Assembly (NCBI GenBank): GCA_023146135.1
Contig: JAGLCR010000003.1
Span: 1-64,000 of the forward strand
DNA length: 64,000 nt
Direction: 5' to 3'
Source: Bacteroidales bacterium
GTDB lineage: Bacteria > Bacteroidota > Bacteroidia > Bacteroidales > UBA1556
Under the pieces are notes generated by a model. The model had not been told where the DNA came from, made no database searches, and saw nothing but the letters and a program-made list of their open reading frames with translations. A program made the translations under genes and the position numbers. Numbering within the stretch: the stretch's first letter is position 1; every line of letters begins with the position of its first letter. Below are positions 37,579 through 46,170 of this stretch, one piece after another.

Positions 37579-37745
37579 TCTATTTTGTTTTGAACCACTA
37601 AGCTACACTATATTTCTATGCAATTTTATTTTTTCTGTGATAAACTCATAATAGTTCCGGTTCAACTCTCCATATTTATAAACAAAATATATTTGAAAAG
37701 CTCTTATTTTAGTACTGAAAGCAAGTAATTCAAACAGTATATTTG

Positions 37746-40418
37746 ATGTCAAATAACAAAACTCTGATGACAAGAATTTTAATCATATTTTCAATATTAT
37801 TTATTGGTTTTCAAACACTTTATGCTCAAAGTAGCACTGTGTTTCAAAAAACATTCACAGAGAATATGGAGTTAAAGTTTCAACCTGAATACACCACATC
37901 TTCGCTTCCAAATTATTTTATTGATGAAATAGCAAAGGCATTGCCTAAAATTAGGATGTATGTTAAAATAAACTATCAATACGAATTACAAACCAAAGTA
38001 GTAAAGAAAGGGAGTAAGTATTTGCTATGTTTGAAAATCAAACAAATTAACCATGGTGGATTCTTTAAGTATAAAAAATTTGATTTTAGCCACCTTATAT
38101 CACCAGCTATTATTGAACAAAGGTTTCTTGTTAAGGATTTAAGTTCCAATACTAAGCATTATCAGAAAGTTAAAGTTAGTTTTGGCTCAAACGATTCTGC
38201 CTCGACTTATATTAATGGCTTAAAGGGAGTCATCACATACAAAATTAGCCTTGACCCTAGCGGTGTACGTTATTATTATGGTGACGAGCAAAAGGCAGAA
38301 TTTCAAAAGGCTGTTAATGATATTGACAACTATTATGATGATGCCTTAAAACTTGATGCCATAGAAAAACGAGTTAATGCATTGAAGTATGATGATGCAG
38401 GTATTGTTGCTATACGAAATGTTGATTTGAAATACATTGAGAAAGACCTTTCTAAAATACAAATTGAGAGTTACCGTAAAAGCTTAAATTTAGACTCCTA
38501 CGACCCAATACGGTTATTGCAAAAGTATAATAATTTAAAGAACTTGATTGATAATAGGCGTCAGGATATGAATCAGAAAATGGAGAATTTAGATTACATA
38601 AATTATTCAGAAGCACTGAATCAACTTAAAGTTGGGAACGAAAGAGAAGCAGTTTTATTATTTAAAAAATCGATTCAAATAAATCCTTATTTCTCTCCTT
38701 CTGTATACCAACTATCACTTATTGATTATCAACATAATAGATACAACGATTGTTTATCTAAATCGCATCATTTATTAAGCGAATTAAAACCCGATTTAGA
38801 AACAAAATCCAAGTCCATTTCATTGGCAAACACTTGCTATAATTCTCTTATGGAGCAATGCTGGAAATTTAATCAAGAAGAGCGTTTCAATCAATCGATG
38901 GCAATGCTAGAAAAAGCAAAAACATACTGTGATAGCACAATGTATATTAAATGTGATTCACGTTTAGAGCAATATATATCGCAAGCAACTTATGGTCTTT
39001 ATGCTTCGTATTTAAGCATTGCAAATGCTTCCCTTAAAAAGGGACGCTTAGATATGTGCCAAGATTATATGAAAATGGCAAAAAACTATAAATTACAAAA
39101 TAAAGAAAAACTTACAAAAAACAACGCCAAAGCCCAACAAATAATTGTTGCATTAATTGAAAGCTTGGTTAACGAATCAGAAATTGCAAGAGGCAAAGGA
39201 GATTTTACTGAGGCAAATAAATTACTCTCACAAGCAAAGGTATTGTGTGACGACAGTCCCAAAACTAATTGCAAATTGGCAATTAACAAAAAAGAAGCGA
39301 TGCTCCATCAGTCGGAGTATAATGCACTGATAAAACAGAGTTTATATTACTCAAAGAAACACAATGCTGATAAAAGTAAAGAATATCTGTCTCTAGCTAT
39401 GACGTATCAAAACATTCATTCAGACTATATTCCCACAAGTATAGGTACTGATACAATTGTTGGAAAAGTACGCTATATAATGTATAATGAAGCAATTGAT
39501 AATGGTAAAATTGATTTTGAGCAGAAAAAATATCAATATGCTTTAATAGCGTTTGCTGAAGCCAGAGAATTGGAACGTGAGTATTCTTTCAAAAAGAACC
39601 CTAATCTTAATACCTACCTTCAACAAGCTGCCAAACCCATTACATTGGATTTATTAAGCAAAGGAAAACTAAAAGCTTGGGGTAAGCATTATATTGAAGC
39701 TCAGAATCTTCTAGATTCTGCTATTATGATTATTCAACAATATGATTTAACGTCTGATTCAGAAGTTAAAAATTCCATTTACGAATTGCATGAGAGTATT
39801 AAAAAAAATGATTGCGATAAGCTAATTACTCAATATAATGCACTTATTAAAAAGGCTAATATGAGCCTTCGCTTTGAAGATTATCACAATGCTTCGCTGT
39901 TTTGGAAAAAGGCAGTAAGCCTTGGAGAAAAAAAACCAAATTGTCAGATTAAAACTAAAACAGCAAATACACAGTTACATAAGTATCAAGTAGACATATC
40001 TTATAGTAACGAAATATTTTTAGCTGACAGCCTAAAATTAGTCAATGCAGAAAATGCATTTACTCACCTTCTTCGTGCTGAAAAAATAAGACAGAATAAA
40101 TCTTTTCATATTCACTCTAGTAAAACAAAACCATTAATTGATATCCTTTTTGAATATAATAAACCAGTACTTAATATTTTAGGTATCAGTTATTATGTGG
40201 AAAATAATAATCAAGAGGAAGCTCTTAAGCTTTGTAAATTCGCCTTAATATCAGGTCAAATTATTGATAATAACCTTATTAGTAAAGTGGCCATATTAAC
40301 CGCAAGTTTTGATAAAAAAGCAAATTCCGACATGAAGCTTATGGCAAATAAACGGTTTGGCAATAAAAAAGAATATAAAGATTTAAAAAAAGCATATCTT
40401 AGAAGTTTAAGAAAATAA
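37746..40418 (+). CDS. large exported TPR-repeat protein of unknown function
   Basis: This 890-residue protein has a signal peptide (TLMTRILIIFSILFIGFQTLYAQ). A TTG one codon earlier keeps the frame open, but the ATG at 37746 is preferred. Residues about 25-200 form a beta-rich domain of no recognised family, with FQPEYTTSSLPNYFIDEIAKAL and VSFGSNDSASTYINGLKGVITYKI. After residue 280 there are many helical TPR-like units, for example YSEALNQLKVGNEREAVLLF and YALIAFAEARELEREYSF, some with spaced Cys that may form disulfides (CDSTMYIKCDS, CDDSPKTNC). It lies 72 bases before the ECF sigma gene in the same direction. A periplasmic or surface scaffold that feeds the sigma system is a guess from position. 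Confidence 0.78.
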   Translation: MSNNKTLMTRILIIFSILFIGFQTLYAQSSTVFQKTFTENMELKFQPEYTTSSLPNYFIDEIAKALPKIRMYVKINYQYELQTKVVKKGSKYLLCLKIKQINHGGFFKYKKFDFSHLISPAIIEQRFLVKDLSSNTKHYQKVKVSFGSNDSASTYINGLKGVITYKISLDPSGVRYYYGDEQKAEFQKAVNDIDNYYDDALKLDAIEKRVNALKYDDAGIVAIRNVDLKYIEKDLSKIQIESYRKSLNLDSYDPIRLLQKYNNLKNLIDNRRQDMNQKMENLDYINYSEALNQLKVGNEREAVLLFKKSIQINPYFSPSVYQLSLIDYQHNRYNDCLSKSHHLLSELKPDLETKSKSISLANTCYNSLMEQCWKFNQEERFNQSMAMLEKAKTYCDSTMYIKCDSRLEQYISQATYGLYASYLSIANASLKKGRLDMCQDYMKMAKNYKLQNKEKLTKNNAKAQQIIVALIESLVNESEIARGKGDFTEANKLLSQAKVLCDDSPKTNCKLAINKKEAMLHQSEYNALIKQSLYYSKKHNADKSKEYLSLAMTYQNIHSDYIPTSIGTDTIVGKVRYIMYNEAIDNGKIDFEQKKYQYALIAFAEARELEREYSFKKNPNLNTYLQQAAKPITLDLLSKGKLKAWGKHYIEAQNLLDSAIMIIQQYDLTSDSEVKNSIYELHESIKKNDCDKLITQYNALIKKANMSLRFEDYHNASLFWKKAVSLGEKKPNCQIKTKTANTQLHKYQVDISYSNEIFLADSLKLVNAENAFTHLLRAEKIRQNKSFHIHSSKTKPLIDILFEYNKPVLNILGISYYVENNNQEEALKLCKFALISGQIIDNNLISKVAILTASFDKKANSDMKLMANKRFGNKKEYKDLKKAYLRSLRK

Positions 40419-40490
40419 TTAATATTTTATTATTTGCACGCAACCATTCACATGATTTAGCGTCATTGGATTGTAAATATTTATTTAGGA

Positions 40491-41048
40491 TTGGAGTATC
40501 AAGAAGATTCATTAATAGAAGGCTGTAAAAGGAAGAAACGGAAGGCTCGTAATAAGCTTTACAAACTTTATGCAAATCAGTTTTTAGGAATATGCCTCCG
40601 ATATACTCGTAATACTAGTGAAGCTGAAGATGTTCTTCATGATGCATTCATCAAAATATTTACAAAAATTGACCAATATACGGGCAAGGGTTCTTTTGAA
40701 GGATGGTTGAAAAGGATAGTTGTAAACACAGCAATTCAAAGTCTTCGCGAACGAAGCAAAACTCGATTGGTATTTGATGAGAACGAAATTGATGATGATC
40801 GCATTCGAGAAGATATTGATGTTGTTTTACCTATGATTTCAGCAAAGGAGTTGATGGAATTTATTCAACAACTTCCAGATGGATATAAAGTAGTTTTCAA
40901 TATGTTTGTTATTGAGGACATGAGTCATCAAGAGATTGCTGATAAATTAAACATATCCGTTGGCACATCAAAATCTCAACTTTTCAGAGCAAAGAAATTT
41001 CTGAAGGTCGAAGTAGAAAAAAGAATTAAGGAATTGGATAATATATAA
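40491..41048 (+). CDS. ECF-type RNA polymerase sigma factor
   Basis: This 185-residue group IV sigma factor starts at a TTG. Region 2 includes FLGICLRYTRNTSEAEDVLHDAFIKIF, with the core-binding and -10 recognition helices, and GSFEGWLKRIVVNTAI. Region 4 (LPDGYKVVFNMFVIEDMSHQEIADKL and SVGTSKSQLFRAKKFL) carries the helix-turn-helix for -35 recognition. It lacks regions 1.1 and 3. It ends two bases before the next gene, whose short N-terminus plus membrane helix fits a cognate anti-sigma factor, so the pair is probably a sigma/anti-sigma unit. Confidence 0.92.
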   Translation: MEYQEDSLIEGCKRKKRKARNKLYKLYANQFLGICLRYTRNTSEAEDVLHDAFIKIFTKIDQYTGKGSFEGWLKRIVVNTAIQSLRERSKTRLVFDENEIDDDRIREDIDVVLPMISAKELMEFIQQLPDGYKVVFNMFVIEDMSHQEIADKLNISVGTSKSQLFRAKKFLKVEVEKRIKELDNI

Positions 41049-41050
41049 TT

Positions 41051-42586
41051 ATGAATAATTTAGAGAACAGCTTTAAGGATGCTTTAACGGACTTTAATCA
41101 AATTAGTCCTTCTGAAAGTATGTGGACACGAATCTCAACCACATTACTCCTTAAATCAGCATGGTTTAAAACAGCCACTTTTAGTTTATTGGCATTGCTT
41201 TTAATAGGACTTCCCTCCTATTTATTCCTTGCATCAACAAATGAAGATACAGTCGAAGTAAAACCAAATAGCACAGAATTAGTTGATAACAACTCTAATG
41301 CAATCCCTACAAAGCAATCTGATAACAGCATTGCTAGCAATACAAAACATGATAATACCATATCTGAAATTAGTCGGAAAAATGAAATCCTAACAAATAA
41401 TAAACCCAATACTACCAACAATAAAAAAACAGCAAAGAGCAGGAATTCGAAGGTCATTGCATCAAATAACTTAAGCTCTTATAATAATACTTCAATCGTA
41501 GCCACAGAAAAAACAAGGCCTATTCAGAAAAACACAATATCAAAAAATAATACTAGCGATAGTGAAGTACTAATCTCTACAACTGGAGTATTATCTGAAA
41601 CTACCACGGAAACAGAAACTACTTCTAAGGGTAATAAATTGGCAGAGAGTAATGCTACATTATCCAGTAAGGTTTCAACTAAATCTGAAGAACAAGAGAT
41701 TGAAAAAATGCCTTCGGCAAACGAATTAAACTTCAACAATGAAATTATTAGCGATCTTGATCAATTTAATTATCAAATAAAATCTAGACCTAAGGTATTA
41801 GTGCATAATAGTTTAGAAGTGTTTGCAGGTCCAAACATCGCTTTCAATAAGATGAATACAACTGATAATTCGTTACAAGATGTTATTAACTTAAGAACAA
41901 ATAATGAATCGCCAAAACTATCTTATCATTTTGGAGTAAACTATAAGACCTATTATAAGAAGTGGTTTATGGGTTTGGGTGTAAACTATCATAGAATTGA
42001 AGACCGGGCAAATTATTTGATCCCAGCCTATGATGTAGAGTCAGTAAAAAGCTCGTATATGATTTTTAGTACTAGCTATAATCGAACAATTATTGGTTAT
42101 TTACCAAACCCAAACGATACAACTACGAACATACCTATATATAAGGTTACGGTAGATCAAGACACAAGTGTAGTGAATAAAGTACATTACGATAGCACAC
42201 AAACAACAGAAACTATATCTTTTACTAATAGTTACTCCTATATTGAGATTCCACTAGTGATTGGACATGAGTTTAACTATAGAAACTTTGTTTTTGATAT
42301 CTCTGGAGGAGTTTCATGGAATCGCTTGATAAAATCAGAAGTAAATATTCCAAATGAACAAGGAACGAGCTTAATAAGTAGTAAGCAAGCCGATAATATT
42401 TTAGTAAAAAACACTTATAATGGATTAGTTGGATTGGGAATAGGTTATCGAATGAATACAGGAAGCCTGCTTTTTGCACGCCCCGAGATTCGTTACAACT
42501 TGAATTCGATGTTCGAAAAAAATTATCCAATAAGTCAAAAATATATACAAGTACGTATATCGCTTGGGATACGTATCAAATTGTAA
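41051..42586 (+). CDS. putative dual membrane-spanning anti-sigma factor with outer-membrane barrel
   Basis: This is a 511-residue protein. Residues 1-40 are a short soluble segment (FKDALTDFNQISPSESMWTRI) that would face the cytoplasm. Residues 41-61 are one hydrophobic helix. Residues about 62-245 are a Ser/Thr/Asn/Lys-rich linker long enough to cross the periplasm. Residues about 250-511 alternate like outer-membrane beta strands (LEVFAGPNIAFNKM, KWFMGLGVNYHRIEDR, FVFDISGGVSWN, YIQVRISLGIRIKL) and end in a hydrophobic strand. This N-helix-linker-barrel order directly after an ECF sigma gene matches the dual membrane-spanning anti-sigma factors described in Bacteroides thetaiotaomicron. Function is inferred from layout and position, not proven. 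Confidence 0.78.
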   Translation: MNNLENSFKDALTDFNQISPSESMWTRISTTLLLKSAWFKTATFSLLALLLIGLPSYLFLASTNEDTVEVKPNSTELVDNNSNAIPTKQSDNSIASNTKHDNTISEISRKNEILTNNKPNTTNNKKTAKSRNSKVIASNNLSSYNNTSIVATEKTRPIQKNTISKNNTSDSEVLISTTGVLSETTTETETTSKGNKLAESNATLSSKVSTKSEEQEIEKMPSANELNFNNEIISDLDQFNYQIKSRPKVLVHNSLEVFAGPNIAFNKMNTTDNSLQDVINLRTNNESPKLSYHFGVNYKTYYKKWFMGLGVNYHRIEDRANYLIPAYDVESVKSSYMIFSTSYNRTIIGYLPNPNDTTTNIPIYKVTVDQDTSVVNKVHYDSTQTTETISFTNSYSYIEIPLVIGHEFNYRNFVFDISGGVSWNRLIKSEVNIPNEQGTSLISSKQADNILVKNTYNGLVGLGIGYRMNTGSLLFARPEIRYNLNSMFEKNYPISQKYIQVRISLGIRIKL

Positions 42587-42596
42587 AACATAGATT

Positions 42597-44093
42597 ATGA
42601 ATAAAATAGCATATATATTAATTAGTTTATCTTTTCTGATATTTTCCGAAAATTTGTCAGCAAGTATAAATGGACCTTTATTTAGCTCTCCACCAAATTG
42701 TAATGCACAGTTTATGGATTCTGCTGATGTGAATAATCCGTTATTAATTCATTTTTATGATTTATCAAGTGGAAATATCACAAGTTGGGACTGGGATTTT
42801 GGTGATGGAACAACTTCAAACATTCAAAACCCATCTCACACCTATAATTCATCTGGTAGTTACCAGGTTCGTTTATTTATAATAGACTCCATTAACTATT
42901 GCTTTGATTCCATCGTTTTAACAATTATTGTATATGCAAACCCAAATCCTTGTCAAGCAAATTTCATTTATAATGTAAATCCTACAAACAATCTTATTTA
43001 TTCATTTACCGATCAATCGCTAGGCAACCCATATTTATGGCAATGGGACTTTGGCGATGGTACCTCTTCAAGCCTACAAAATCCTAATCATACATTTGCT
43101 CAAGCAGGAAACTACACTGTAAGCTTAATAATCACTACACAGTCGTGTGTCGATACTATCAGTCAACAAGTAACTGTATTGCCCAATTCAAATACCGGTA
43201 GCTTATTGGTTTATGCTTTTGCCGATTCTAGTTATTTAGTAAACGGAATGCTCTACCTTTATCAATACGACAGTATAAGTGGAAATATGCTTGCTTACGA
43301 CTCAGTATTATCAACATCAAATCAAGGAATAAGCTACTATAACTTTCCCAATATACCCATGGGTTATTATTATGTTTATGCCAAAATATTGAGCAATTCA
43401 AATTTTTTCGCTTCATTTTATAATACATGGATGCCCAATACTATATATTCGCAGTTTGCCGACTCCATTTTGGTAAATTCCAATAATATATATACTAACA
43501 TTCAACTATCCAAAAGTTCGGTATCCTACCCTGCTGGAAGTGGTAGCATCAGCGGAATAATTAGTAATAAAGTGATGGGAACTAACCTTCCATTGGCTAA
43601 TGTTGATGTTTACTTATTACTAAACGATTCCAATATTATAACTAAAACAGCAACTAATTCACAAGGTGAATACGAGTTTAGCAATTTAGCTTTTGGCACA
43701 TATTATATTCACCCTGAGATTATTGGAAAATTCACACAAAATAAAATGGTAAGTATCGGTTATGAAAACCCTGATGAAGATAGTGCTTCATTTGTAGTGG
43801 ATGGAAAAAATATTGTGGCAGGCATTTCTACAAAACCTAGACTTCTTTCAAAGGTTACTATTTTTCCTAATCCTGTAAAGAATGATTTGTATATTCAATC
43901 AAATACTGATCATAGTATAGATTTAGAAATTGAAATTTTCGATATTCAGGGCAGAGTTATTATTTCAAAAAAGAATTATATTTGCACGCATGAACAAAAA
44001 AGAATTAATGTTTCCAATCTTACAAAAGGACTATATTTTATTCGATTACAATCGCATGACAGTCAGCTTATAAAGAAATTTATTAAAAACTGA
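42597..44093 (+). CDS. T9SS-secreted protein with two PKD domains
   Basis: This is a 498-residue surface or secreted protein. Signal peptide (AYILISLSFLIFSENLSA), PKD 1 at about 35-112 (WDWDFGDGTTSNIQNPSHTY), PKD 2 at about 118-192 (WQWDFGDGTSSSLQNPNHTF), a region of unknown fold to about 300, a CnaB-like regulatory domain at about 310-400, and a type A T9SS sorting domain from IFPNPVKNDLYIQ to the end. PKD domains are Ig-like spacers or binding modules; no enzyme is present. The gene begins 10 bases after the anti-sigma gene, so it is likely in the same transcript and may be a target of the system. Confidence 0.9.
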   Translation: MNKIAYILISLSFLIFSENLSASINGPLFSSPPNCNAQFMDSADVNNPLLIHFYDLSSGNITSWDWDFGDGTTSNIQNPSHTYNSSGSYQVRLFIIDSINYCFDSIVLTIIVYANPNPCQANFIYNVNPTNNLIYSFTDQSLGNPYLWQWDFGDGTSSSLQNPNHTFAQAGNYTVSLIITTQSCVDTISQQVTVLPNSNTGSLLVYAFADSSYLVNGMLYLYQYDSISGNMLAYDSVLSTSNQGISYYNFPNIPMGYYYVYAKILSNSNFFASFYNTWMPNTIYSQFADSILVNSNNIYTNIQLSKSSVSYPAGSGSISGIISNKVMGTNLPLANVDVYLLLNDSNIITKTATNSQGEYEFSNLAFGTYYIHPEIIGKFTQNKMVSIGYENPDEDSASFVVDGKNIVAGISTKPRLLSKVTIFPNPVKNDLYIQSNTDHSIDLEIEIFDIQGRVIISKKNYICTHEQKRINVSNLTKGLYFIRLQSHDSQLIKKFIKN

Positions 44094-44175
44094 TGCAACT
44101 ATTAAGTATTATTTCATCATATAGAAAACAAGAACAAATATTAAATTAAATAATTATAAATATAAATTAAACATT

Positions 44176-46107
44176 ATGAAAACAAGATTACTTTCTTTAG
44201 CAATTCTGTTCTTTACCTCAATCAGCTTAATGGCTCAGGTAACGGGAACAGTACAAAACTCAGCAACGCAAGCTCCAATTGCGAATAAAACCGTTTACCT
44301 TATGGGCGATAGCACTTCAGGCTCAATGGTTTACATGACTACTACTACCAACGCTAGCGGACAGTTTAGCTTTGCTAACGTGGGAGCAAGTAACTCCTAT
44401 ACTGTTTATACTTATGATTGTAATCAAAGTATAGTTAGTCAAGTATTTACTTCACTAAATACAGTAGTTACATTACAAATATGTGTTGGTAATCCAAGTG
44501 GATCATGCCAAGCAGTATTTTCATCTTATCCTGATTCGTTAAACCCTCTTATAATCAATTTTGTTGATTATTCTTTGGGAACTCCAACAAGTTGGGCATG
44601 GAATTTTGGAGATGGCAATACATCAACTCTTCAGAACCCAATACATGCTTATGCAAGTAATGGTACTTACACAGTAACTCTTACAATAATTACTGCTACT
44701 TGTGGTGATACCACTAACATTGTAGTAACTGTAGGTAATACTACACCTAGTTGTCAAGCATCTTTTTACTCAGTTCCTGATACTAGCAACACCAATACAA
44801 TAATGTTTTTTGACCTTTCTACAGGAAACCCAACATCTTGGTCATGGGATTTTGGCGACGGTAATACATCTAACCTTCAAAGCCCTACTCATACCTATGC
44901 CTCTACTGGAACATATAATGTTACATTAACTATTGCATCGGCTCTTTGTTCCAATTCAACTACTAATACTATTGTAGTATCTAGCGGTGGAGCATGTCAA
45001 TCAGCTTTCTCTTATGCTGCTACACCTACAAATCAAAATATTATTCAGTTTACTGATATATCAACAGGAGGTCCTACATCATGGATGTGGAACTTTGGTG
45101 ACGGTACAAGTTCTAACGTACAAAACCCTCTACATACTTTTGGTACAGGCACATATACTGTTACATTAATGATTTTTGGAGCTAACTGTCAATCTACATC
45201 TACACAAAATGTTACAATTTCTAGTGGCACTACAAATTATATTGTTTGGGGTAGTGTTTATGCAGGAAGCAACAACCTTGACTTGGGTCTTATTAAAATA
45301 TTTGAAACAAATGGTACTTTAGTTGATTCTGTAAATCTTGATTCTAGTGGTGGGTATCATTTTAATAATATTCCTGCTGGAGATTATCTAATCTATGCAA
45401 TGCCTGCTAGCAATTCAGTTTATACAACTACTCATGCAGCTACATATTATATTAATGATATACTATGGTCATCAGCTACTACTTTAACTGTAAGTGCAAA
45501 TCAATCAAATGTGAATATCAACTTAGCACTTATTACTCCGATGAATGGTACAGGTAGTATTTCAGGTAGCCTTGGAACGGGTTCTAAATCTGCAGTATCA
45601 GGTGTTATCGTAAATTTATTAAGCAATGGTATGCCAGTAGCTACAAACACCACCGATGCAAATGGAAATTTTGTTTTCAATAACCTTGCAGATGGTACTT
45701 ATACTATTTGGGCTGAAATTGCAGGTAAAACTACTACACCTATTGTAGTAACTCTTGATGCAGCAAATCCAAATTCAACAAATAACGACTTTGTAGTTAG
45801 AAACAATACAGTGGTACCTAAAACTGTTTCTATCAATAACTCAAGCAAGTCGATGAGTATTAAAACTTATCCTAACCCTGTTGAAAACAATTTAAATATT
45901 GCAATCAATATGGAGAAGAGTTCTAGAGTAAGTGTGGAGATTTTCAATCTTGCAGGTCAACTAATTATCTCAAATAATTATGATCTTCAAGCTGGAGCAC
46001 AAACATTAAGAATCAACCTAAATGATTTAGCAAAAGGTTCTTATATCCTAAAAATTACTGATAATGCAAATGCACACACGCAGCAATTAATCACAAAAAT
46101 GAAATAA
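44176..46107 (+). CDS. T9SS-secreted protein with three PKD domains
   Basis: This is a 643-residue surface or secreted protein. A signal peptide (RLLSLAILFFTSISLMA) is followed by a CnaB-like domain (about 22-108). Three PKD domains (about 113-350) have cores AWNFGDGNTSTLQNP, SWDFGDGNTSNLQSP and MWNFGDGTSSNVQNP. Two further CnaB-like domains follow (about 355-540), and a type A sorting domain from YPNPVENNLNIAI to the end. It shares its plan with the upstream gene and is probably a paralogue. It is rich in Thr, Ser and Asn, as in T9SS-carried adhesins. It closes the ECF locus ahead of a strong terminator. Confidence 0.9.
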   Translation: MKTRLLSLAILFFTSISLMAQVTGTVQNSATQAPIANKTVYLMGDSTSGSMVYMTTTTNASGQFSFANVGASNSYTVYTYDCNQSIVSQVFTSLNTVVTLQICVGNPSGSCQAVFSSYPDSLNPLIINFVDYSLGTPTSWAWNFGDGNTSTLQNPIHAYASNGTYTVTLTIITATCGDTTNIVVTVGNTTPSCQASFYSVPDTSNTNTIMFFDLSTGNPTSWSWDFGDGNTSNLQSPTHTYASTGTYNVTLTIASALCSNSTTNTIVVSSGGACQSAFSYAATPTNQNIIQFTDISTGGPTSWMWNFGDGTSSNVQNPLHTFGTGTYTVTLMIFGANCQSTSTQNVTISSGTTNYIVWGSVYAGSNNLDLGLIKIFETNGTLVDSVNLDSSGGYHFNNIPAGDYLIYAMPASNSVYTTTHAATYYINDILWSSATTLTVSANQSNVNINLALITPMNGTGSISGSLGTGSKSAVSGVIVNLLSNGMPVATNTTDANGNFVFNNLADGTYTIWAEIAGKTTTPIVVTLDAANPNSTNNDFVVRNNTVVPKTVSINNSSKSMSIKTYPNPVENNLNIAINMEKSSRVSVEIFNLAGQLIISNNYDLQAGAQTLRINLNDLAKGSYILKITDNANAHTQQLITKMK

Positions 46108-46132: not shown

Positions 46133-46170
46133 AAGGCTATCTGTCATTCGACAGATAGCCTTTCTTTTTT
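46133..46170 (+). terminator. rho-independent terminator closing the ECF/PKD locus
   Basis: AAGGCTATCTGTC (46133-46145) pairs perfectly with GACAGATAGCCTT (46150-46162) around ATTC, followed by TCTTTTTTT. Confidence 0.92.

Follow-up and report, generated by a model that had tools for sequence, protein, structure and literature searches.

Dual membrane-spanning anti-sigma factors (Dma) are a recently described kind of regulator. So far they have been linked with vesicles and the use of glycans by Bacteroides of the gut, organisms that to our knowledge have no type IX secretion system (T9SS). In this study, we analyzed a locus in a stretch of 64,000 nucleotides from a Bacteroidales bacterium (GTDB lineage Bacteroidales; UBA1556; assembly GCA_023146135.1, contig JAGLCR010000003.1, positions 1 to 64,000 of the forward strand; hereafter the window). 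In this locus, a gene for an extracytoplasmic function (ECF) sigma factor is followed by a gene for a 511-residue protein of the Dma kind and by two genes for T9SS surface proteins with PKD repeats (cargo 1 and cargo 2). Judged from its sequence and that of its relatives, the locus is probably a trans-envelope switch of the Dma type dedicated to a T9SS surface protein.

Signaling from the cell surface to an ECF sigma factor is also known from TonB-dependent systems. In FecA-FecR-FecI, a surface event crosses both membranes to an ECF sigma factor controlling the adjacent operon; there, the receptor is a TonB-dependent protein of its own and the anti-sigma domain is periplasmic, whereas the window encodes one polypeptide predicted to reach across both membranes. 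Another related system is PorA-PorXY-SigP of Porphyromonas gingivalis, in which a T9SS surface protein with a C-terminal domain (CTD) signals to an ECF sigma factor. Unlike the window, it uses a two-component route and no barrel anti-sigma factor, and SigP controls T9SS components but not an adjacent cargo (PMC7712824). PorP-like barrels resemble the window in that an outer-membrane barrel is functionally paired with T9SS cargo, of type B in their case (PMC9143113); they are not known to be anti-sigma factors, and the barrel of the window is small and would be tethered to the inner membrane.

The closest system is Dma itself. As published, Dma2 of Bacteroides thetaiotaomicron begins with a sigma-binding domain, continues with a membrane helix and a disordered tether, and ends in a barrel; it is encoded next to an ECF21 sigma factor. 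Deletion of dma2 caused the strongest rise in das2 and the genes downstream, as expected if the sigma factor transcribes its own operon, and glycan sensing was suggested for Dma2 by its authors (PMC13088901). The Dma loci of B. thetaiotaomicron have the domain order, the adjacent ECF sigma gene and downstream genes in one operon in common with the window. They differ in the nature of the downstream genes (NigD-like or DUF4858/DUF4943) and in a phenotype of vesiculation and expression of polysaccharide utilization loci, whereas in the window T9SS cargos with a common domain, here called MID, lie downstream and cargo 2 has a predicted sigma-type promoter of its own.

A sigma factor gene paired with a predicted two-membrane protein

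The structural features of Dma are all present in the 511-residue protein, i.e. a short N-terminal domain followed by a single helix, a long disordered tether and a C-terminal barrel, and so is the gene adjacency, as the sigma gene lies 2 bases upstream. AlphaFold2, supplied with 40 homologues, predicted helices at residues 2-11 and 22-35, a membrane helix (37-61), disorder (67-245) and a barrel (251-510), the latter with confidence (predicted local distance difference test, pLDDT, mostly >90). Comparison of the barrel with the PDB using VIA-align gave Z 17-18 with OprF, NspA, OmpA and OmpW, all of which are eight-stranded. Thereby, the eight-stranded barrel forecast in a first-pass annotation, made by a model from the letters of the window, was borne out. 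The architecture drawn there also stands, with corrected lengths: the soluble start comprises about 36 residues instead of 40 and the tether about 180 instead of 185. The Pfam match to OMP_b-brl was below threshold, an NCBIfam scan at E up to 1 gave no match, the PorP/SprF family included, a PDB search by sequence gave no solved relative of the barrel family, and when named genomes were scanned with the barrel protein as single sequence, no match was obtained.

The sigma factor is 35-49% identical to the sigma factors of other pairs, and in one scan of named genomes made with the sigma alignment, a protein of the family was found directly after most sigma genes, including many Flavobacteriaceae. 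A hidden Markov model (HMM) of the window family matched the barrel protein of a Tannerellaceae locus (L111) at E 4e-24. In this locus and in Parabacteroides (L128), a gene for a NigD-like lipoprotein follows the sigma-barrel pair, which is the dma1 type of operon of B. thetaiotaomicron (Das1-Dma1-NigD). The sigma factor of the window is related to those of the sigma-barrel-NigD loci and may belong to group ECF21. With the same domain architecture, an adjacent sigma gene and the HMM match to the L111 protein, the resemblance to Dma pointed out in the first-pass annotation holds, and the sigma factor and the 511-residue protein together belong to the Dma kind. Which gene comes next varies by lineage: NigD-like, DUF4382, a T9SS cargo or none. 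In Marinilabiliales, a DUF4382 protein was seen after the pair at L081:8875-9762 and L103:4706-5602.

With an HMM of the N-terminal segment, 112 proteins were detected in the loci examined, 108 of them encoded directly 3' of a sigma gene (some of these loci had been chosen by sigma). The predicted sigma-binding domain is tandemly repeated in a dozen anti-sigma factors, usually in two copies (L053, L052, L054, L055 (14180-15763), L059, L060, L065, L140, L150, L151) and in about seven copies in L137:7777-9744, from a metagenome-assembled genome (MAG) of Saprospiraceae; such proteins could bind several sigma molecules per sensor. Several proteins depart from the full architecture. On contig 3 of the same genome (L045:6093-6908), a related sigma gene precedes a 271-residue protein with N-terminal domain, helix and tether and no barrel, and such short versions are frequent in loci of Sphingobacteriaceae and Cytophagales. 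In a Tannerellaceae MAG (L085:7536-8848), the helix/tether part and the barrel lie on two adjacent open reading frames (ORFs), which points to a split Dma or to a frameshift in the MAG. In L099:7543-8664 (Flavobacteriales NORP67), the anti-sigma N-terminal domain, membrane helix and linker are followed by a PKD and CHU_C T9SS domain replacing the barrel, an odd combination of inner-membrane anchor and T9SS signal; the fusion counts in favor of the switch proposed below.

T9SS cargos and predicted promoters

Both PKD proteins carry the marks of T9SS cargo. Pfam matches above cut-off were obtained for PKD_4 (114 bits in cargo 1, 149 bits in cargo 2) and Por_Secre_tail (67 and 55 bits), TIGR04183 was above cut-off, a type A sorting domain is present on both, and hydrophobic N-termini indicate signal peptides. 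The translocon protein SprA is encoded in full in the same genome (2612.7 bits).

For a survey of gene neighborhoods, 40 homologous barrel proteins of the same order were gathered by barrel similarity alone. The sigma gene lies directly 5' of the barrel gene in nearly all of these loci, and the next gene encodes a T9SS cargo in 34 of the 40. Among these cargos, 31 have type A tails or PKD matches (one is split by a frameshift) and 3 have CHU_C type B tails. The remaining six loci have a gene for peptidase S66, YidC or SLT in this position (one locus each), a MID cargo in second place (one locus) or the next gene on the other strand (two loci). Cargos made up 12 of 287 other ORFs of the same loci, a difference with a Fisher value of 6.5e-30 that is merely indicative because the loci are related. 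Two more sigma-barrel-T9SS triads lie on contig 67 of the same genome (L041 4347-7578 and 10973-14875), and the four-gene order sigma-barrel-cargo-cargo was found again in three congeners (L049, L050, L051). In one of these (G009, L051:9780-11373), the cargo 1 orthologue is present as two ORFs with the T9SS tail on the second, which may be a pseudogene or an assembly error.

Two similar ECF-type promoters were predicted, one 5' of the sigma gene (GCAACCATT-N12-CGTCAT) and one 5' of cargo 2 (GCAACTATT-N11-CATCAT). The stringent pattern GCAACYATT-N11/12-CRTCAT matched twice in the 2.28 Mb assembly, at exactly these sites, and not in a reversed control. Over 11 genomes of the genus it gave five matches, four of them 5' of orthologous sigma genes, each in a different species, and one 5' of cargo 2 (reversed control 0). 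The operon site recurs 5' of the orthologous sigma genes of three congeners, and GCAAC sites are also found at the cargo 2 position in L049, L050 and L051. With the looser pattern GCAAC[CT]-N12-17-[AG]TC[AT] within 140 bases upstream, 18 of 34 paired sigma genes, 7 of 18 cargos with a gap >60 bases and 3 of 166 other genes were hit. Another loose pattern, GCAACY-N14/18-RTCWT, was rejected as uninformative genome-wide (41 matches vs 32 in the reversed control). The main targets of the sigma factor look like its own operon and adjacent large secreted surface proteins, in an arrangement kept across the order. Taken together, the next-gene counts, the common promoter of sigma and cargo genes and the co-divergence described below support the view that the link to T9SS cargo, which the first-pass annotation had proposed as new, is real and conserved.

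The features of the locus are compiled in Table 1. The four genes and their gaps of 2, 10 and 82 bases as well as the terminator after the PKD genes agree with the first-pass annotation. An 891-residue protein that has a signal peptide and, apart from a weak TPR match, belongs to no Pfam family is encoded at 37743-40418 and ends 72 bases 5' of the sigma gene. The sequence TTTGCACGCA occurs twice in the window (40433-40442 and 43981-43990; 0.13 expected), with one copy immediately 5' of the sigma promoter and the other within the final part of cargo 1, and may be a housekeeping promoter element.

Table 1. Features of the sigma-barrel-cargo locus (positions in the window)
Feature	Position	Strand	Evidence
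Predicted ECF promoter of the operon, GCAACCATTCACATGATTTAGCGTCAT (-35-like GCAAC, -10-like CGTCAT)	40440..40466	+	
ECF sigma factor gene	40491..41048	+	185 aa, TTG start; Sigma70_r2 60.8 bits, r4_2 62.2 bits, both > Pfam cut-off
Gene for 511-aa probable Dma-type anti-sigma/barrel protein	41051..42586	+	AlphaFold2 architecture; homologues adjoin sigma gene 3' in nearly all loci
Candidate N-terminal cytoplasmic sigma-binding domain (aa 1-36, motif FxxxLxxFxxxPSxxxWxxI)	41051..41158	+	Family HMM
Inner-membrane helix (aa 37-61)	41159..41233	+	AlphaFold2 helix, hydrophobicity
Disordered periplasmic tether (aa 67-245)	41249..41785	+	pLDDT <50 over most
Predicted eight-stranded barrel of the outer membrane (aa 251-510) that has one long beta hairpin	41801..42580	+	AlphaFold2, VIA-align
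T9SS cargo 1, 498 aa: signal peptide, 2 PKD, MID, CarboxypepD-like domain, type A CTD	42597..44093	+	
MID of cargo 1 (aa 198-325), unmatched in Pfam and NCBIfam	43188..43571	+	
Second predicted ECF promoter, 5' of cargo 2, GCAACTATTAAGTATTATTTCATCAT	44095..44120	+	
T9SS cargo 2, 643 aa: signal peptide, 3 PKD, MID, CarboxypepD-like domain, type A CTD	44176..46107	+	
MID domain of cargo 2 (aa 352-469)	45229..45582	+	
Intrinsic terminator closing the cluster	46133..46162	+	13-pair stem, then TCTTTTTTT

Co-divergence of MID and barrel

MID is a stretch of about 125 residues common to the cargos, located between the PKD repeats and the CarboxypepD-like domain, with the consensus GxVFAG...DxGxxxLY...GxYxF...GxYxxKA...SxxxxxYxPTYYGxxxxWxxA. 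Searches of Pfam and NCBIfam gave no match for most MID members; in a PDB sequence search, the first half only resembled the prealbumin-like domains of NOMO. Of the 41 strongest MID matches in 60 genomes, 35 have a barrel sensor on the same strand no more than 7 kb 5' of them; in the genus, this holds for all 23.

Over 33 triads, the distances of MID and barrel were correlated (r 0.60), also as partial correlation given sigma (0.53; p 0.001). For the next cargo domain and the CTD, the corresponding partial correlations with the barrel were 0.18 and 0.11. When MID was halved, each half by itself gave a partial correlation of 0.36-0.49, and the bootstrap interval for MID minus the next domain was 0.10-0.54. 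Based on this co-divergence, MID is a probable partner of the barrel.

Proposed switch and rival explanations

The proposed switch would work as follows. The N-terminal helices of the anti-sigma factor would hold the ECF sigma factor. The protein is predicted to cross the inner membrane once before a disordered tether leads through the periplasm to the eight-stranded barrel in the outer membrane. An event at the barrel would release the sigma factor, which would then transcribe from the two predicted GCAAC-type promoters, conserved in relatives, the sigma-sensor-cargo 1 operon and the cargo 2 gene. The cargos would be exported via T9SS to the cell surface. In the least certain step, suggested by the co-divergence, recognition between MID and barrel would let the sensor read the state of the protein under its control. 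Put forward tentatively, as a possibility well short of even chances, is a reading in which the barrel binds MID of the exported cargo as its ligand and a single polypeptide passes on through both membranes whether a particular surface protein arrives at the outer membrane or is lost.

Several points weigh against this scheme. At E<1e-10, only 42 of 67 MID matches are linked to a sensor, and most of the loci used to train the MID profile were triads. Since the weaker matches are less linked and the profile stems from such loci, MID is better taken as a wider cargo domain with a sensor-linked core. Co-divergence with MID (partial, given sigma) was similar for the extracellular hairpin (0.51) and the membrane strands (0.53) of the barrel and lower for the other loops (0.35); without loop specificity, it may therefore mean tight co-inheritance and not contact. 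The sigma-barrel pair stands alone in Flavobacteriaceae and is followed by NigD-like or DUF4382 genes in other lineages, so the sensor has no need of a T9SS cargo. Binding of the sigma factor by the N-terminus is putative: a readthrough fusion model of the two speaks to the fold, which is good (pLDDT 85.9; predicted template modeling score, pTM, 0.71), and not to the interface. Also, the stringent promoter pattern was derived from these very sites, and independent support therefore comes from its absence elsewhere, the orthologous sites and the looser order-wide test. As the genome is 70% complete, further sigma targets may escape.

The same switch could operate with the cargos as output only. 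The sigma, sensor and promoter steps would be as above and the feedback step alone would differ: the barrel would respond to something else, such as a disturbed outer membrane or an external ligand (a glycan or another one), and the cell would answer with the PKD proteins as surface coat or adhesin. This comes close to an even chance, given that Dma family members in other lineages function in the absence of T9SS cargo, as Tannerellaceae and Parabacteroides have a NigD-like gene after the pair, Marinilabiliales a DUF4382 gene and Flavobacteriaceae none, and that glycan sensing was suggested for Dma2 (PMC13088901). However, co-divergence with the barrel in one domain alone is not expected of a pure output gene. 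It would also fit a barrel whose main role is to anchor or receive the cargo at the surface, with the anti-sigma part reporting the occupancy of this anchor; PorP-like barrels are reported to anchor type B CTD proteins (PMC9143113). Such a role is improbable, as the barrel is eight-stranded and OmpA-sized, most cargos here are type A, for which anchoring through anionic lipopolysaccharide (A-LPS) is reported (PMC9143113), and a low-abundance regulator would hardly serve as bulk anchor. That there is no functional link and the adjacency is historical might be argued from the frequency of T9SS genes (about 4% of nearby ORFs, 10% of those of at least 350 residues). However, the background count against the next-gene enrichment over many families of one order rejects this, the two further triads, the common promoter and the concentration of MID at these loci also speak against it, and chance adjacency is excluded for practical purposes.

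With regard to the preferred reading, a Dma-type switch with T9SS output, the evidence supports that this output is new and the sigma-barrel pair itself is of an already known kind. A dedicated T9SS output, a second sigma promoter at a cargo gene and MID were not found in a search of openly available literature. The conserved sigma-sensor-cargo module offers a candidate ligand (MID), a defined output and a defined promoter, so that the signal of a two-membrane anti-sigma factor can be put to a direct test. The module further suggests a surface feedback particular to each T9SS cargo, of which the literature searched gives no description. If MID is indeed the ligand, insulated parallel feedback loops, three in this genome, would keep each surface protein in supply.

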